A DNA stretch of 64,000 bases. It comes from Desulfobotulus mexicanus (GTDB lineage: Bacteria > Desulfobacterota > Desulfobacteria > Desulfobacterales > ASO4-4). The stretch is from the NCBI RefSeq assembly GCF_006175995.1, contig NZ_VDMB01000001.1, positions 291,069 through 355,068 of the forward strand, given 5' to 3'. The notes beneath the pieces were generated by a model. The model did no database searches. It was not told where the DNA came from and saw only the letters and a program-made list of their open reading frames with translations. A program made the position numbers and the translations under genes. Below, piece by piece: positions 7,306 through 51,411 of this stretch. Position 1 is the stretch's first letter. Each line of letters begins with the position of its first letter.

Positions 7306-7317
7306 CTTTGTTTTTTT

Positions 7318-7664
7318 GTAATTGTTCAGCACCGTTTTTTTAGTATGATACCTGCCAGACAGATGCACAGGCACCCAGGCTATTTGCCTGTGACGCAATC
7401 TTATTCTTAGAGCTTCTTGCCCTGTGCGGAAGCGGCAAAAACTCCCCGCCACAGGTAGGATAAGCTTTTTGATTACCATAGCAGATTTAAGCACGCTGCC
7501 TTTGTGGCGGCTCAGACAGTTTGCCGCTTCTTTCGCACAGGCCTTCGAATCTCTGATCCGAAACGATTGCAACGTCACTTGCAAATAGCCAAGGTGCCTT
7601 GCAATAATACGAAACTGCTGCAATTGCAGCATTGGATTTTCAAAATAAATTGTGCTGAATAGCA
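7318..7664 (+). repeat. Dispersed palindromic element, copy 1 (forward)
   Basis: First full copy of the window-wide repeat family; it fills most of the 487-bp gap between the radical SAM gene and the next gene. It runs from gtaattgttcagcac to gtgctgaatagcagc. Its left and right halves pair over most of their length: terminal repeats, the AGGC..GGCTATTTGC..GTGAC..GCAATC arm, the CCTGTGCG arm, AAGCGGCAAA with TTTGCCGCTT, and CCGCCACA with TGTGGCGG. T-rich runs flank both ends. No protein is encoded; short open frames inside it are chance. Forward means the orientation beginning with the GTGACGCAATC arm. Confidence 0.92.
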
Positions 7665-10597: not shown

Positions 10598-10618
10598 ACT
10601 GTGAATAAAAACAATGCT

Positions 10619-10972
10619 GTAACTATTCAACGCCGTCTGCGTTGGCTTAGGACCATAGCTGTCAGGCATATGCACAGGCACCCAGGCTGTTTGCCCGTGA
10701 CGCAATCTTATTCGGAAGCTTCTTGTCCTGTGCGGAAGCGGCAAAAACTCCCCGCCACAGGCAGGATAAGCTTTTTGATTACCATGGCAGGCTTAAGCAC
10801 GCTGCCTTTGTGGCGGCTCAGACAGTTTGCCGCTTCTTTCGCACAGGTCTGCAAAGCTTTGATCCGAAACGATTGCAAAGTCACTTGCAAACAGCCAAGG
10901 TGCCTTGCAATCGTTCAAAGCTGTTGAAATTACAATGCATGAAATTCAAAATTAAATTTCCTGAATAATTAC
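10619..10972 (+). repeat. Dispersed palindromic element, copy 2 (forward)
   Basis: Full copy filling almost the whole gap (10598-11004): it starts 21 nt after the preceding stop codon and ends 32 nt before the next ATG. Terminal repeats are worn (gtaactattcaacgc and ctgaataattac), while the internal arms are intact. There is no room for a separate promoter between the element and the downstream ribosome-binding site. Confidence 0.92.
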
Positions 10973-17429: not shown

Positions 17430-17558
17430 GGTCAGCAGAGTTTAGGGAAAGCAAGAACATAAAGTTTATGATATTGAGTAATTATTCAGCACAGTGTTCC
17501 AAGTACCATAGCTGCAAGACAGATGCACAGGCCCCAGGCTATTTGCCCGTGACGCAAT

Positions 17559-17627
17559 CCGGCACTCAAGCTGAAAAGCTCAAGCCCTTTACGGGAGCAA
17601 AAAGTGCCTATGGATCTTGAGTGCCGG
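17559..17627. repeat. Nested 69-bp inverted-repeat insert A
   Basis: The ends are ccggcactcaag and cttgagtgccgg, perfectly complementary. The roughly 45-nt interior differs from the three other inserts. It sits at a different place in the host element (between the outer GCAATC arm and the CCTGTGCG arm), so it is an independent insertion or a separate lineage. Confidence 0.88.
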
Positions 17628-17765
17628 ATTTGGGAGCTTCTTGCCCTGTGCGGAAGCGGCAAAAACTCCCCGCCACAGGCAGGATAAGCTTTTTGATTAC
17701 CATGGCAGGCTTAAGCACGCTGCCTTTGTGGCGGGTCAGACAGTTTGCCGCTTCTTATTAGCACT

Positions 17766-17834
17766 CCGGCACTCAAGCCTGAAAAAGCTTATTGCCTTTT
17801 ATAGTAGGCTTTGGGTTTTTGGCTTGAGTGCCGG
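17766..17834. repeat. Nested 69-bp inverted-repeat insert B
   Basis: The ends are ccggcactcaagcc and ggcttgagtgccgg, preceded by ttattagcact. It replaces the right-hand TCGCACAGGCC arm of the host element. The interior, read in reverse, is recognisably related to insert D and more distantly to insert C. Confidence 0.88.
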
Positions 17835-17995
17835 ACGAAGCTCTGATCCGAAACGATTGCAATGTCACTTGCAAATAGCCACGGAGCCTTGCAACAGTAC
17901 GAAGCTGCTGCAATTAAAGCATTGGCAGTTCAGAAAAAACCATGCTGAACAGTTACGATATTTATAGATGTATAACCCAAAAGGAGAGTGAATTC

Positions 17996-26152: not shown

Positions 26153-26505
26153 GTAAATATTCGGCAAATTTTATTTTGAAATTCAGGTATTGTAATTTCA
26201 ACAGCTTTGAATCATTGCAAGACACCTTGGATGTTTGCAAGTGACATTGCAATCGTTTCGGATCAGAGCTTTGCAGACCTGTGCGAAAGAAGCGGCAAAC
26301 TGTCTGAGCCGCCACAAAGGCAGCGTGCTTAAGCCTGCTATGGTAATTAAAAAGTTCATCCTGCCTGTGGCGGGGAGTTTTTGCCGATTCCGCACAGGGC
26401 AAAAAGCTTCCGAAAAAGATTGCGTCACGGGCAAACAGCCTGGGTGTCTGTGCACCTGTCTGACATTATGGTCCTTAGCCAGCGAAGAGGGTGTTGGACA
26501 GTTAC
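26153..26505 (-). repeat. Dispersed palindromic element, copy 4 (reverse)
   Basis: Full copy in the 640-bp divergent gap between nadE and the efflux operon (25965-26603), no nested insert. Terminal repeats are worn (gtaaatattcggc and gttggacagttac); the internal arms are intact. The rest of the gap (26506-26603) is AT-rich and presumably holds the promoter of the efflux operon. Confidence 0.92.
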
Positions 26506-26603
26506 AATAAGATAAGAGTTCTGAACATTCTGTCCTGAAATTCTAATGCTGTAATTTTATCGGATGTTTGTGAAACGATGTTTTTATTTGTGACGGAGGA
26601 AGA

Positions 26604-33201: not shown

Positions 33202-33245
33202 GCAGGGGCAGGCGTGAAGGCCTGCCCCTGCAATTTTGTGTTTTG
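33202..33245 (+). terminator. Intrinsic terminator of the RND operon
   Basis: A perfect 12-bp stem GCAGGGGCAGGC / GCCTGCCCCTGC with a 6-nt loop, followed by a T-rich tract, directly after the permease stop codon. Confidence 0.85.
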
Positions 33246-33380
33246 TAACTTCTGAGCAGCTTAAATTTAGTTCTTTTAATTCAGAAGTTTAAAAAATGAC
33301 CAGTAGCCCATCACGGATCGAAATGAGTTTGAATCCGGCATAAGTTACTTTATGACAAGATGCCGTAGCAGGACCTGCGT
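33246..33380. other. Unexplained intergenic segment
   Basis: AT-rich, no open frame with coding character. It opens with an inverted repeat (acttctga at 33248 and tcagaagt near 33283) whose first bases, gtaacttctgagcag, faintly resemble the terminal repeat of the dispersed element. Possibly a decayed element end. Nothing else is recognised. Confidence 0.4.
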
Positions 33381-33794
33381 TGCTGTTCAGCACATTTTAT
33401 TTAGATGTATCAATGATGTAGCTTCAGCAGCTTCGTGCTCGATGCAAGGCACCTTGGCTGTTTGCAAGTGACATTGCAATCGTTTCGGATCAGAGATTCG
33501 TCCGGCACTCAAGCCATAAATTCAAAGCCAATCATTTAGAACAATAAAACTTTATTGAGCTTGAGTGCCGGAGTGCTAATAAGAAGCGGCAAACTGTCTG
33601 AGCCGCCCCAAAGGCATCGTGCTTAAGCTTGCCATGGTAATCAAAAAGCTTATCCTGCCTGTGGCGGCGAGTTTTTGCCGCTTCCGCAGAGGGAAGAAGC
33701 TCCCGAATAAGATTGCGTCACGGGCAAATAGCCTTGGTGCCTGTGCATTTGTCTGGCAGGTATGATACCTGGAAAATAGTGCTGAACAGTAACT
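33381..33794 (-). repeat. Dispersed palindromic element, copy 5 (reverse, with nested insert)
   Basis: Full copy between convergent genes. The ends are tgctgttcagcac and gtgctgaacagtaac. It carries one nested 70-bp inverted-repeat insert at the same internal position as copies 3 and 7. Confidence 0.93.
33502..33571. repeat. Nested 70-bp inverted-repeat insert C
   Basis: The ends are ccggcactcaagcc and gcttgagtgccgg, followed by agtgctaataag. The interior is the most AT-rich of the four and only distantly similar to inserts B and D. Confidence 0.88.
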
Positions 33795-33807
33795 ATTTTT
33801 TGCCGTA

Positions 33808-35777: not shown

Positions 35778-37967
35778 ATGAAGAAACCTGTTATATTCAA
35801 TGATCCTGAACAGATGGTGGATTTCATCATTGAGAATGTGGGAAAAAAACTGGTGTTCGGGACACAGCTGGGTCTTGGAAAACCCAATAATATCCTCAAT
35901 GCGGTGTACAGGCGCGTCCAGAAAGACCAGAGCATCAGTCTGCATATCATTACGGGTCTTTCCCTGGAGCCCCCCGTACCGGGAAGCGAGCTGGAACGTC
36001 GTTTTCTCGGTCCCCTTGTGGAAAGGGTATGGGGTGGCTATGTGGAACTGGATTATGCAAGGGACATGCGCCTTAAGAAGCTGCCGCCCAATGTGACCAT
36101 CAGCGAGTTTTTCTATAAGGCCGGGGCATTCATGAATAATGCCCATATGCAGCAGAACTACATCAACAGTAATTACACCCATGCGGCCCGTGACGTGAAC
36201 CTCAACGGCATGAATGTGGCGGGAGCCCTTCTGGGCAAAAAAGAGATCAATGGGCAGCTCAAGTACTCTGTGGGATGTAATGCGGATACGGCCATTGATG
36301 CAGTAGATATCATGAAGGCTAAATGCGAGAAGGGTTTCAAAGGGATAGCCATTGGTGAGATTAATAATAATCTCCCCTTCATGTTCGGTGATGCCGTTAC
36401 GGAGCCTGAAGTTTTTGATGCTATCCTGGAAAGCCCCCAGAGCGATTACAGGCTTTTTGGAGCGCCCAAGGAATCCATCAATACAATTGATTACTGCATC
36501 GGCCTGCATGCCAGTGCCCTGATTCCTGATGATGGCACCCTGCAGATAGGTATCGGCTCCCTGGGTGATGCCATTACCTATGGACTCACCGTGCGCCACA
36601 AGCATAATGATCAGTACAAGAAGCTGCTGAACGAAGCAGGGATCATGGACAAGTACAAGGACATGATTGATACTTGGGGTGGAACAGATCCCTTTAAAAA
36701 AGGTCTTTACGGATCCACCGAAATGCTGGTGGACACCTTTGTGGACCTTTATAAGGAAGGCATCATGAACCGCAGGGTCTATGATGATATCCGAATTCAG
36801 AGGGTGGTCAATGCCGGTCTCTTTACCGATGACAGAAATGTAACTCCTGAAGGCTTCCGTCAGATTATTGTGGATGGCGGTGTGCACCGGGTACTCACGG
36901 AAAAGGATGTGACTTTCCTTAAGCGATTCGGTGTTCTGAAGGAGAGTGTTGTCTATCAGGATGGTAAGCTGGTGGATGGTGGCACTACCGTGTCTGCTGA
37001 TATGGGAGATGTGGAAAACCTTAAGGTTGTTGCCGGAACCATGCTGGGGGATAAGCTTAAGGAGGGTTACTGGGCCCATGCGGGTTTCTATCTCGGGCCC
37101 CTGAAGCTTTATGAGACACTCAATGCAATGAGTGACGAAGAGAGGGCGCTGATTAACATGACCAGCGTACTCAATGTAAACCAGCTTTATTCAAACAATA
37201 AGTACGGCAGCCTTGAGCTGAGGGTGTTGCAGCGTAAAAACGCCCGTTTCATCAATGCGGGTCTTATGGTGACCCTGTCCGGCATGGTTGTTTCGGACAG
37301 CCTGGACAACCTGAAGGTGGTTTCCGGTATCGGTGGTCAGTATAACTTTGTGGCCATGGCCCATGCCCTTGCGGATGCCAGGGGTGCCCTTATGATCCGG
37401 GCCACCCGCGGGGAAGGTCCGAAAACAGTTTCCAATGTTGTTTTCAATTACGGTCACTGCTCCGTACCCCGTCACCTGAGGGATATTATTATTACGGAAT
37501 ATGGTATTGCGGATCTCAGGGGGCAGTCCGATAAGAATGTTATCAAGCAGCTTTTGAATGTGGCTGATTCCCGTTTCCAGGAAGGTCTGCTGGAAAAAGC
37601 CAAGCAGGCGGGCAAGATTGAGGCGGATTACAAAATTCCCGATGCTTTCCGGAATAATTATCCTGAAAAGCTGGAGAAAGTAATTGCGCCATATAAAAAG
37701 GACGGCCTGTTCGGACCCTTCCCCTTTGGTACTGTCTTTACGGACGAGGAAATTGCCATCGGCAAGGCTTTGAGAACATTTAAGACCAAGGCGGAGATCA
37801 GCAAGTTTGCCGCAGCCAAGGGTGTTATCGGTCAGTTTATGGCATCTGTTCCTGAATCGGCAAAGCCCTATCTCAAGCGGATGGACCTTGAAAACCCTGC
37901 AAACTTTAAAGAAAAAGCCATGCAGAAGGTTGTTCTCTGTGCCCTGAAGGATACGGGCGCAATCTAA
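35778..37967 (+). CDS. Large acetyl-CoA hydrolase/transferase family protein
   Basis: A 729-residue member of the CoA-transferase superfamily, with an extra region of about 250 residues compared with the 449-residue protein next door. Blocks include KLVFGTQLGLGKPNNILNAVY near residue 24, LQIGIGSLGDAITYGLTVRH near 255, VSGIGGQYNFVAMAH near 520, and IITEYGIADLRGQSD near 570 with the conserved Glu. It is expected to hydrolyse acetyl-CoA or exchange CoA with acetate. GGGGGGAAGT precedes the ATG. A strong sigma70 promoter and a terminator bracket it, so it is a single-gene unit. Confidence 0.88.
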   Translation: MKKPVIFNDPEQMVDFIIENVGKKLVFGTQLGLGKPNNILNAVYRRVQKDQSISLHIITGLSLEPPVPGSELERRFLGPLVERVWGGYVELDYARDMRLKKLPPNVTISEFFYKAGAFMNNAHMQQNYINSNYTHAARDVNLNGMNVAGALLGKKEINGQLKYSVGCNADTAIDAVDIMKAKCEKGFKGIAIGEINNNLPFMFGDAVTEPEVFDAILESPQSDYRLFGAPKESINTIDYCIGLHASALIPDDGTLQIGIGSLGDAITYGLTVRHKHNDQYKKLLNEAGIMDKYKDMIDTWGGTDPFKKGLYGSTEMLVDTFVDLYKEGIMNRRVYDDIRIQRVVNAGLFTDDRNVTPEGFRQIIVDGGVHRVLTEKDVTFLKRFGVLKESVVYQDGKLVDGGTTVSADMGDVENLKVVAGTMLGDKLKEGYWAHAGFYLGPLKLYETLNAMSDEERALINMTSVLNVNQLYSNNKYGSLELRVLQRKNARFINAGLMVTLSGMVVSDSLDNLKVVSGIGGQYNFVAMAHALADARGALMIRATRGEGPKTVSNVVFNYGHCSVPRHLRDIIITEYGIADLRGQSDKNVIKQLLNVADSRFQEGLLEKAKQAGKIEADYKIPDAFRNNYPEKLEKVIAPYKKDGLFGPFPFGTVFTDEEIAIGKALRTFKTKAEISKFAAAKGVIGQFMASVPESAKPYLKRMDLENPANFKEKAMQKVVLCALKDTGAI

Positions 37968-37994: not shown

Positions 37995-38034
37995 AAAGCC
38001 GGTTTTTCCAGAAGGGAAAACCGGCTTTATGGTT
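37995..38034 (+). terminator. Intrinsic terminator after the acetyl-CoA hydrolase gene
   Basis: AAAGCCGGTTTT pairs with AAAACCGGCTTT around a 10-nt loop, 27 nt after the stop codon. The structure is symmetrical and may work on both strands. Confidence 0.75.
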
Positions 38035-38043
38035 TGGTCGGAA

Positions 38044-38392
38044 GTAATTGTTCAGCACAATTTTCTAAGTATCATACTTGGCAGACAGATGGACAGGCAC
38101 CCAAGCTATTTGCTCGTGACGCAATCTTCTTCGGGAGCTTCTTGCCCTGTGCTGAATCGCCAAAACTTGTCGGCACAGGCAGAATGAACATTTTTATTTC
38201 CATATCAAACTTAAGTACGCTGCCTTTTGTGCCGACTTCAGACAGTTGGCGATTCTTTACGCACAGGCCTTTAAAGCTCTGATCCGAAACGATTGCAACG
38301 TCACTTGCAAATAGCCATGGAGCCTTGCAATAGTACGAAGCTGCTGAAATTACAATGCTGGTATTGCTGAATAAAATATGCTGAGCAGTTAG
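38044..38392 (+). repeat. Dispersed palindromic element, copy 6 (forward, variant stems)
   Basis: Full copy between convergent genes, without nested insert. Terminal repeats are gtaattgttcagcac and atgctgagcagttag. Both central stems have changed sequence on both strands while keeping pairing: AATCGCCAA with TTGGCGATT instead of AAGCGGCAAA with TTTGCCGCTT, and GTCGGCACA with TGTGCCGAC instead of CCGCCACA with TGTGGCGG. Confidence 0.92.
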
Positions 38393-38408
38393 GACAGGAT
38401 TTTAAAAA

Positions 38409-39668
38409 TCACGGATTCAGCCTGCTTTCCTGAAAGGTGAGGGTGGTAAAAAGATCCTCTATGGTTTCTCCCCTGCGTATGCGGGAGATGCCTCCGTCTT
38501 CATGGAAGAGCAGTTCCTGGGGCCTAAGCTGGCCGTTGTAGTTGAAACCCATGGCATGGCCGTGGGCACCGGTGTCATGGATGACGAGAAGGTCTCCTTC
38601 CTCCACCGGGGGCAGGGGCCTCTGGACTGCAAACTTGTCGTTGTTTTCACAGAGGGCACCTACCACGTCCACGGGCTGATCTGTCGGGCTGCTGTCTTTT
38701 CCCAGAACATCGATATGGTGGTAGGCATCATACATCCCCGGTCGCATGAGCGAAGACATGCAGGCATCTACGCCAACATAGCTGCGGTAGGTCTCCTTGT
38801 GATTGATGGCCCGGGTCACCAGCACGCCATGGGGACCGGTCATAAAACGGCCGGACTCCATGAAAAGGGCGGGCATGTATCCCCGTTTTTCTTCAAAATC
38901 TTTGAAAAGGGCTGTGACTTCTTTTCCCATGGCTTCCAGGTCCAGCGGTGAATCCTCCGGTCTGTAGGGAATGCCAAGCCCGCCTCCGATATTGAGGAAA
39001 TCAAATCGTATGCCCAGGGCATCTTCCGTATCTGCCGCAAGGGTGAGGAGCATGCGTGCTGTTTCCACCATATAGGTATAATTTCTCTCATTGGATACCA
39101 CCATGGTGTGCATGCCAAAGCGGGTGGCTCCCCTTTCCATGGCAGCCCTGTAGGCGGGAATCACCTGTTCGTGGGTGATGCCGTATTTGGCTTCCACGGG
39201 ATTACCGATGATGGCATTTCCTGTGCGTCTGGGACCGGGGTTGTAACGGAAGCAGATGGTTTCAGGCATCACGGGAACCTTGGGAATGAGACTGATGTCA
39301 TCAAGGTTGAGAATGCAGCCCCCGTTTTCAAGGGCCATGTCAAAATCTTCCTGTGATGTGTTGTTGGATGTGAACAGGATGTCCTGCTGGCCTGCACCGA
39401 TCTTCCTTGCCAGGGTCAGTTCGGCTCTGGAGCTGCAGTCAAAGCCAAATCCCATGGATTGCATGAGTTTGAGGATGGAGGGATTGGGCAGGGCCTTGAC
39501 GGCATAATATTCCCTGAAACCCGGAATCCCGCTGAAATGTTTTTTCAGCTTTGCACCGGTTTCCAGAATGCCCTTTTCGTCATAAATGTGAAAAGGGGTG
39601 CCAAAGTGGGCTGCAATTTCAGGCAGCCGGGGAAAAAGACGGTCTTTGAACTCTCCGGACATGGGCAT
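38409..39668 (-). CDS. lysA: Diaminopimelate decarboxylase
   Basis: PLP enzyme that converts meso-diaminopimelate to L-lysine, the last step of the DAP pathway. The PLP lysine lies in YYAVKALPNP near residue 58. The phosphate-binding glycine loop is LNIGGGLGIPY near 225, the later substrate loop contains ESGRFMTGPHG, and CENNDKF has the family Cys that acts across the dimer interface. At 419 residues the length is typical. AAGGAG lies nine bases before the ATG at 39668. Repeat copy 7 lies immediately upstream (72 nt from the start). Confidence 0.93.
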   Translation of the reverse strand: MPMSGEFKDRLFPRLPEIAAHFGTPFHIYDEKGILETGAKLKKHFSGIPGFREYYAVKALPNPSILKLMQSMGFGFDCSSRAELTLARKIGAGQQDILFTSNNTSQEDFDMALENGGCILNLDDISLIPKVPVMPETICFRYNPGPRRTGNAIIGNPVEAKYGITHEQVIPAYRAAMERGATRFGMHTMVVSNERNYTYMVETARMLLTLAADTEDALGIRFDFLNIGGGLGIPYRPEDSPLDLEAMGKEVTALFKDFEEKRGYMPALFMESGRFMTGPHGVLVTRAINHKETYRSYVGVDACMSSLMRPGMYDAYHHIDVLGKDSSPTDQPVDVVGALCENNDKFAVQRPLPPVEEGDLLVIHDTGAHGHAMGFNYNGQLRPQELLFHEDGGISRIRRGETIEDLFTTLTFQESRLNP

Positions 39669-39740: not shown

Positions 39741-40151
39741 GTAATTATTCAGAACGGTTTATTCCAAACTGCCAATGCTGTAATTGCAGCAGCTTCGTAC
39801 TATTGCAAGGCTCCATGGCTATTTGCAAGTGACATTGCAATCGTTTCGGATCAGAGCTTTGTCCGGCACTCAAGCCAGAAACCCAGAGCCTGCGATGAAA
39901 ACAATGGGCTTTTGCAAGCTTGAGTGCCGGAGTGCTAATAAAAGCGGCAAGCTGTCTGAGCCGCCACAAAGGCAGCGTGCTTAAGCCTGCTATGGCAATC
40001 AAAAAGCTTATTCTGCCTGTGGCGGGGAGTTTTTGCCGCTTCCGCACAGGGCAAGAAGCTCCCGAATAAGATTGCGTCATGGGCAAATAGCCTGGGGCCT
40101 GTGCATCTGTCTTGCAGCTATGGTACTTAGAAAACTACGCTGAACAGTTAC
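39741..40151 (-). repeat. Dispersed palindromic element, copy 7 (reverse, with nested insert)
   Basis: Full copy filling most of the 488-bp gap between the Lrp-type gene and lysA, both transcribed leftwards. Ends are gtaattattcagaac and gctgaacagttac. Relative to transcription it has the same orientation as copies 1, 2, 3 and 8. Confidence 0.93.
39863..39930. repeat. Nested 68-bp inverted-repeat insert D
   Basis: Ends ccggcactcaagcc and gcttgagtgccgg, followed by agtgctaata. Its interior aligns with insert B read in reverse (shared blocks aaaccca.agcc and aggcttttgca-like ends). Confidence 0.88.
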
Positions 40152-40156
40152 CTTTT

Positions 40157-51023: not shown

Positions 51024-51047
51024 TTTTACTTCAATAATTGTAAGCGT

Positions 51048-51394
51048 TTAATTGTTTAGCACAGTTTTCCAAGTACTATAGCTGCAAGACAGATGCACAG
51101 GCCCCAGGCTATTTGCCCGTGACGCAATCTTATTCGGAAGCTTCTTGCCCTGTGCGGAAGCGGCAAAAACTCCCCGCCAAAGGCAGGATAAGCTTTTTGA
51201 TTACCATAGCAGGCCTTGGTACGCTGCCTTTGTGGCGGCTCAGACAGTTTGCCGCTTCTTTCGCACAGGCCTGCAAAGCTCTAATCCGAAACGATTGCAA
51301 TGTCACTTGCAAATAGCCAAGGAGCCTTGCAATAGTACGAAGCTGCTGCAATTACAGCATTGGCAGTTTGGGATAAACTGTGCTGAACAGTTAC
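51048..51394 (+). repeat. Dispersed palindromic element, copy 8 (forward)
   Basis: Full copy of 347 bp between the second activator gene and the flgB promoter, no nested insert. Ends are ttaattgtttagcac and gtgctgaacagttac. The two halves align over almost the entire length when one is reversed, making it the best copy for folding. Confidence 0.93.
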
Positions 51395-51411
51395 GTAAGT
51401 ACCAATCATTC

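Follow-up and report, generated by a model that had tools for sequence, protein, structure and literature searches.

A MITE-like repeat of Desulfobotulus mexicanus with a folded, covarying core that probably acts as RNA

The window analysed here, a stretch of 64,000 nucleotides from Desulfobotulus mexicanus (contig NZ_VDMB01000001.1, positions 291,069 to 355,068 of the forward strand), holds eight copies of a nearly palindromic repeat, the sixth of which sits between two convergent open frames (35778-37967 on the plus strand and 38409-39668 on the minus strand). Inspection by eye revealed no clear target duplication at copy 6, and promoter-like and terminator-like matches in its vicinity were at chance level in our scan. 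A hairpin, AAAGCCGG...CCGGCTTT, can also be read by eye at 37995-38029, between the left gene and copy 6, where the terminator scan was silent. The features of copy 6 are as follows.

38040..38395, plus strand: copy 6, whole element, GTAATTGTTCAGCACA ... TGCTGAGCAGTTAG, ends placed by comparison with other copies
38133..38289, minus strand (the strand read by the covariance model): conserved folded core, match of model R2 at G000:C1:329201-329357:-, E 1e-12
38155..38163, plus strand: stem I, 5' arm, AATCGCCAA
38246..38254, plus strand: stem I, 3' arm, TTGGCGATT, the exact complement of AATCGCCAA
38169..38177, plus strand: stem II, 5' arm, GTCGGCACA, facing TGTGCCGAC
38228..38236, plus strand: stem II, 3' arm, TGTGCCGAC

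An earlier note on this DNA had claimed that copy 6 was rewritten on both arms of both central stems, and this was borne out, with pairing kept. Read by eye, the change is not made up of substitutions alone: stem I has become one base shorter in a paired manner, and stem II has gained one pair. The 9-mer AATCGCCAA has only two matches in the window (the two arms), and 0.93 are expected by chance, so that by itself it is weak proof. Each strand of copy 6 gives a far better fold than its shuffled versions (z of -7.1 and -6.9), none of 100 shuffles being as good. The claim that the seven other copies share one set of stems held exactly for copies 1, 2 and 3, but copies 4, 5, 7 and 8 each carry a one-sided change in one arm; nor is copy 6 the sole variant, since L164 also has variant stems among the 75 full-length D. 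mexicanus copies.

7317..7663, plus strand: copy 1; core 7408-7563 on the minus strand, R2 E 4.7e-18
10618..10972, plus strand: copy 2; core 10714-10869 on the minus strand, R2 E 4.7e-18
17476..17957, plus strand: copy 3, carrying the two optional modules; its D. alkaliphilus counterpart (L077) is inverted
26153..26507, minus strand: copy 4; core 26256-26411 on the plus strand, R2 E 7.6e-17
33379..33795, minus strand: copy 5, with the 3'-arm module; the D. alkaliphilus site (L218) is without a copy
39741..40152, minus strand: copy 7, with the 3'-arm module; the D. alkaliphilus ortholog has the same orientation and is without the module
51047..51395, plus strand: copy 8; core 51136-51291 on the minus strand, R2 E 8.4e-18
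17560-17626, 17767-17833, 33503-33570 and 39864-39929: optional modules of 50-70 bases with inverted ends CGGCACTCAAGC

The optional modules, recognised by their CGGCACTCAAGC ends, occupy two fixed positions in the element (alignment columns 84 and 227) and were found in 35 of 178 copies. Their presence differs between orthologs; copy 6, for example, is without one that its D. alkaliphilus ortholog carries. A stretch of about 150 bp adjoining copy 5 (33231-33378) is missing in D. alkaliphilus too; it is about 79% like part of the L164 locus, and is perhaps another repeat.

Eight copies are a small sample of the family. A 31-base core pattern, searched with at most three mismatches and with fragments counted, was found at 113 places in the D. 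mexicanus genome (56 forward and 57 reverse), against none in the reversed control. Among the 100 matches listed, at least 18 D. mexicanus places have the identical core GATCCGAAACGATTGCAATGTCACTCACAAA, and these are perhaps a young subfamily. BLAST with copy 6 detected the element in three of 58 genomes, all of one genus and D. mexicanus included, and an exact-pattern scan of 84,980 species genomes, a collection that may lack the D. mexicanus genome itself, returned 117 stretches, all from Desulfobotulus alkaliphilus ASO4-4. BLASTN against plasmid and phage collections and a search of viral contigs with one exact pattern gave no match, and our searches of open PMC papers brought up no description of the element.

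The repeat is a MITE-like mobile element of about 350 bp, with ends GTAAYTGTTCAGCA and 8-bp target duplications. Among 147 copies with both ends recognisable in D. mexicanus and D. alkaliphilus, 108 start with GTAA and 116 end with TTAC, and the flanking 8-mers match at a mean of 5.73 of 8 positions, compared to 2.51 ± 0.11 for shuffled flanks; in 86 of the 147 they match at seven or eight positions. Other duplication lengths gave far weaker signals (for 7 bases, 2.94 vs 2.19). At three of the seven D. alkaliphilus sites without a copy for which sequences were printed, the target is present once (L162, L182 and L210 in D. mexicanus; L134, L132 and L037 in D. alkaliphilus), as exemplified by TAAAAATC in the comparison of L162 with L134; the remaining four sites were ambiguous. 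The element thus has several features of a MITE, being short and present in many copies, with terminal inverted repeats, a target duplication and empty sites. Some reading frames stay open across the 54 codons of the conserved inner part in the majority of copies (one frame in 154 of 178), but the inner part hardly varies.

The ends resemble those of ISDge4, a member of the ISBst12 group of the IS66 family in Deinococcus geothermalis, for which ends of GTGACTACTCAGCA and GTAACTGCTCAGCA and an 8-base direct repeat are given (PMC12898284). The two sets of ends are nearly the same and both elements have an 8-base duplication, so that the Desulfobotulus ends appear to be of ISBst12 type, with GTAA-type ends and an 8-bp duplication as in this one published member that was compared. 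However, ISDge4 encodes a 449-residue transposase (PMC12898284), and no cognate transposase was found for the Desulfobotulus element. IS66 transposase (PF03050) had no match in the D. mexicanus genome or in G002, a further Desulfobotulus genome, and we therefore rejected a local IS66 transposase of D. mexicanus as the source. The single PF03050 gene in D. alkaliphilus (L219, on G001:C66) lies between perfect 24-base ends, GTAACTTCTCAATAAGTGTAGGCA, that are unlike those of the element. Judged by their letters, the ends are ISBst12-like, and we claim no parent element.

To compare orientations, the flanks on both sides of D. mexicanus copies were used to find their places in the D. alkaliphilus loci, giving 41 sites (42 rows, with copy 3 represented twice). 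At 11 of these sites D. alkaliphilus had no profile-detected copy, at 18 the copy had the same orientation, and at 12 it was inverted relative to the flanks; the D. alkaliphilus loci amount to about a quarter of the genome and were chosen for holding a core, so that occupied sites are over-represented. Inverted copies, including copy 6, therefore make up 12 of the 30 occupied D. alkaliphilus sites, some of the matches being partial. In the comparison of L181 with L125, the interior matches in inverted orientation over 346 bases at 96%, and the flanks match directly. At sites other than L196/L143 (see below), the outermost 12–32 bases match directly as well, which says little because the ends repeat each other. 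Copy 6 is inverted relative to its ortholog in D. alkaliphilus L218, with 93.9% identity over 229 interior bases.

Opposite orientations could also have arisen from independent insertions, or from replacement of one copy by another. When orthologous pairs were ranked by similarity, eight of 16 came first of 102 (four of seven inverted pairs and four of nine direct ones). The three remaining inverted pairs (ranks 37, 88 and 37 of 102) and five of the nine same-orientation pairs (ranks 75, 74, 5, 2 and 60) were not closest relatives, as replacement would predict; at L166, moreover, the D. mexicanus copy is of the copy-6 type and incomplete, and the D. alkaliphilus copy is full length and only 83% like it. 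Against replacement stand the four inverted pairs that ranked first of 102, with the copy 6 pair far ahead of its runner-up (0.889 vs 0.822), and the pair L196/L143, in which a variant end (GTGATTG) keeps its side in both species and the interior is reversed. Furthermore, L157_2893 and L051 have the same 8-bp duplication in common, although that pair ranks 88. We regard replacement or independent insertion as a minor possibility for the inverted orthologs taken together. From these comparisons, some pairs, copy 6 included, are best read as inverted in place, and others may be replacements.

Stems of the copy-6 type were found in ten copies in three Desulfobotulus genomes, among the loci examined and with incomplete copies included, some with single departures: copy 6, L164, L166, L203 and L210 in D. 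mexicanus, L118 and L218 in D. alkaliphilus, and L228, L230 and L240 in G002. An eleventh copy, D. mexicanus L156, is variant in stem II only. Five of the ten (L164, L210, L118, L230 and L240, the last with one departure) have AATCGGC facing GCCGATT, with only the first stem I swap, and the other five (copy 6, L166, L203, L218 and L228) have AATCGCC facing GGCGATT, with both swaps. From these two variants it follows that the change in stem I took no fewer than two paired steps. Several copies of this type keep the core without recognisable ends. L203 and its counterpart L228 in G002 lie in 2.4 kb of collinear sequence at 83.7% identity, in which the 239-base core is 90.4% identical and in opposite orientation. 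Across orthologous pairs (16 of 21 in the alignment), the inner stems were 97.0% identical, the apical loop 89.4%, and the outer arms 82–84%. These figures suggest that the core is under constraint at the individual sites. Had copies only converted one another, the copy-6 type would be expected to be gone, and its stems persist in three species.

To quantify covariation within the genus, we used a pair test similar to R-scape (a G test with APC, three null schemes and a FastTree tree) on 178 end-to-end copies, 76 from D. mexicanus and 102 from D. alkaliphilus, drawn from 105 and 182 merged matches respectively. Columns gapped in at least half of the copies were dropped, which removed the optional modules and the inserted bases of copy 6. 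None of the 127 pairs was significant against the phylogenetic null under any scheme, and RNAalifold returned weak structures from the genus alignments, at least partly because indels shift the stems of copy-6-type copies out of register. In aggregate, however, double changes from one Watson-Crick pair to another on a single branch numbered 31, vs 14.5 ± 4.2 for matched pairs outside the structure, a value reached in none of 200 control draws.

Paired changes of this kind could arise without selection for folding if the arms of the palindrome copy each other, by template switching or arm-to-arm conversion. The element is nearly palindromic and its interior is reversed at many orthologous sites; paired changes on the same branch do occur, and no single pair is significant within the genus, all of which copying would accommodate. 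Mismatches facing each other in the outer arms (columns 6/344 and 8/342) also became Watson-Crick in 37 of 58 changes, and those in the mid arm (columns 71/262 and 72/261) in eight of 33. Yet the mismatched loop between stems I and II (columns 122-124/199-201) underwent 17 changes, none of them to Watson-Crick, and arm copying would not be expected to spare this inner loop; it could contribute in the outer arms. Copying should erase both these mismatches and the loop motifs that recur across genera between different stems, and it gives no reason for the asymmetry between strands described below. We consider arm copying without folding selection very improbable. The earlier note had named a single conversion event between palindrome halves as something that would overturn its reading of copy 6; such an event fits badly with at least two paired steps in stem I and with a loop in which none of 17 changes led to a Watson-Crick pair.

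The fold extends beyond Desulfobotulus, to many other bacteria that reduce sulfate. A covariance model of the core (R1) matched five of 194 genomes, namely three of Desulfobotulus plus G079 and G182. The G079 version is about 240 bp long with ends, read by eye, of GTAAC...GTTAC, and has different helices with the same loops. We assembled 25 sequences from these three lineages (11 standard Desulfobotulus copies, 12 from G079 and two from G182), with the structure named by us from these same sequences; rows of the copy-6 type were omitted because the aligner shifts them by one base, and an alignment with such rows (A3) was left unused for counts. In this set 92.4% of cells were paired, nine of 34 pairs had double changes, and double-changed cells numbered 47, against 2–9 in slid versions. 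A second model built from this set (R2) matched 74 of 389 genomes of the order, in 31 of 150 genera, at E ≤ 0.001, the E-values being rough. In a sample of the phylum it matched seven of 395 genomes. Two of the seven lie outside the order, and the match in one of them, L277, is GC-rich and palindrome-like and may be due to chance. With 150 candidates scored in each, five genomes had 86, 63, 41, 26 and 7 places.

For a wider comparison, alignment A5 brought together 46 sequences, 45 of which are distinct, each from its own genome. Of these genomes 45 belong to the 74, and one, that of L275 (G414), lies outside the order; the rows of A5 were 40 places, one per genome, taken from the matches listed, plus the six loci L268 and L272-L276. 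In A5, which was fitted to the structure of the model and hence leans towards pairing, 89.7% of cells are paired, and double changes occur in 19 of 26 pairs. Double-changed cells numbered 203, vs 61.8 ± 6.9 when shuffled and 23–45 when slid. Taken from these alignments, covariation across genera is strong, and the core has the covarying helices and conserved loops by which a structured RNA is recognised. In the earlier note, an absence of significant covariation among many aligned copies was to count against folding; this is what the individual pairs gave within the genus, but the comparison across genera showed strong covariation. Selection for folding, which the note had read from copy 6, is supported by the excess of double changes within the genus and the covariation between genera, and not by copy 6 alone. 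Neither the window nor ten loci from other genera had a match above the gathering threshold of an Rfam 15 family, and permissive Rfam scans gave matches only far below gathering scores.

The sequences around the core differ among genera. The loci with the same core in other genera (L272-L276 and L279-L318 among them) have ends CGTAAAAAGTC/GACTTTTTACG, with at most two mismatches, in 29 of 46 cases, some extending to TGATGAACTCGTAAAAAGTC, so that two or more kinds of ends flank the same core. Direct repeats of 5 bases flanking these other-genera loci matched at 4.34 of 5 positions, vs 2.40 for shuffled flanks, and were exact in 18 of 29, the repeat length and offset being the best of many choices and neighbouring choices nearly equal. 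We tentatively propose, at somewhat less than even odds, that the core represents a previously undescribed family of structured RNAs in Desulfobacterota, carried as cargo between at least two unrelated sets of transposon-like ends (GTAAC..., with 8-bp duplications, and TGATGAACTCGTAAAAAGTC, with duplications of about 5 bp), whose copies can be inverted in Desulfobotulus.

The earlier note had left the folding molecule as either RNA or a cruciform or hairpin substrate for transposition. In the inner stems, changes that produce G.U on the minus strand outnumber the opposite by 2.77 to 1 (95% interval 1.79–4.58), compared to 1.21 (0.92–1.68) in the outer arms. Relative to unpaired columns the excess was 2.06 (0.99–4.63), and relative to inner unpaired columns only 1.76 (0.67–4.73), both intervals including 1; all of these ratios were corrected for base composition and column-bootstrapped. 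A first count of 138 vs 37 (p 3e-11) was set aside since its control was uncorrected for base composition, and the corrected value is weaker. Predicted energy was lower on the minus strand in 174 of 178 copies. In other genera, 20 pairs that both strands are predicted to form had 34 G.T and 13 A.C when read on the modelled strand, and one stem I pair was G.U in 26 sequences and A-U in 18. Of the 46 stem II loops, four were GNRA and eight CUUG, both of them stable tetraloops in RNA; the commonest was GUUA, which is no classic tetraloop. We also considered whether the GA/GA internal loop is a k-turn, but this reading is speculative: the loop has five bases, not three, and copies of the copy-6 type are without one GA. 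Orientation with respect to tandem neighbours, with genes called by a simple codon score, was random (28:27 in D. mexicanus and 42:38 in D. alkaliphilus), which is odd for an RNA read from its neighbours on one strand.

It is conceivable that the fold is kept as DNA, as a cruciform or single-stranded hairpin acted upon by a transposase or recombinase, with selection on mobility or inversion. Consistent with this, the element is mobile, its orientation changes in place, and a core without recognisable ends has also been inverted between species (L203/L228). However, target duplications of 8 bp are characteristic of DDE transposases that work on duplex ends and not of single-strand hairpin transposition, and they argue against such a substrate here. 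The bias of wobble changes towards one strand, seen both within the inner stems and among other genera, the GNRA and CUUG tetraloops, and the conservation of cores even where ends are unrecognisable all speak against it as well, and we judge a DNA fold unlikely. RNA on the minus strand of copy 6 is the likeliest of the alternatives, favoured in the sequence comparisons by the wobble asymmetry and some of the tetraloops, and the hairpin-transposition half of the note's suggestion loses ground.

Taking these results together, we estimate a probability of roughly two in three that copy 6 is an old member of a MITE-like family whose core forms its fold single-stranded, RNA of the minus strand being the likeliest molecule, and whose helices are under selection. 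Selection would keep the helices and internal loops, and the letters of the helices would drift in compensating pairs. The folding strand would be RNA, requiring that the core is transcribed, and copies without recognisable ends would once have had them. A protein may bind or process the conserved internal loop, in which most copies have CUGUYUGAG facing GAGU, and the core hairpin could act in transcripts much like the hairpins of Correia or ERIC repeats. Because the element is nearly palindromic it would fold either way round, and flipping between the arms would be tolerated.

Comparison with described repeats, made by description, offers several parallels. Correia repeat enclosed elements (NEMIS) of Neisseria are likewise intergenic MITEs, in about 100–250 copies; RNase III can cut the hairpins formed by their transcripts (PMC10969869, PMC2649163), and inversion of Correia elements in Neisseria has been reported (reference 52 of the review PMC10969869). 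They differ from the Desulfobotulus element in host and length, and the portions of these sources consulted do not mention a covarying core common to many genera (PMC10969869, PMC2649163). QMITE2 of Coxiella burnetii, also compared by description, is a MITE with 7–9 bp duplications and a predicted structured transcript, with no mention of covariation in the figure legend that describes it; the same review also mentions ERIC and BOX (PMC10969869). ERIC, REP/BIME and BOX likewise form many intergenic hairpins per genome, as compared by description. REP elements, to our knowledge, leave no 8-bp duplication, unlike the Desulfobotulus element.

Bacterial MITEs are often regarded as selfish leftovers. 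The middle of this element is better conserved than the ends, shows covariation over many genera and apparently persists longer than the ends do. These properties suggest that transposons carry a functional RNA here. The RNA motif is concrete and testable, and some genomes hold from dozens to about a hundred natural copies of it. Since orthologous copies often lie in opposite orientations, effects of orientation on neighbouring genes can be tested directly as well. If the reading of the core as a cargo RNA is true, one genome would hold about a hundred flipping copies of one RNA.
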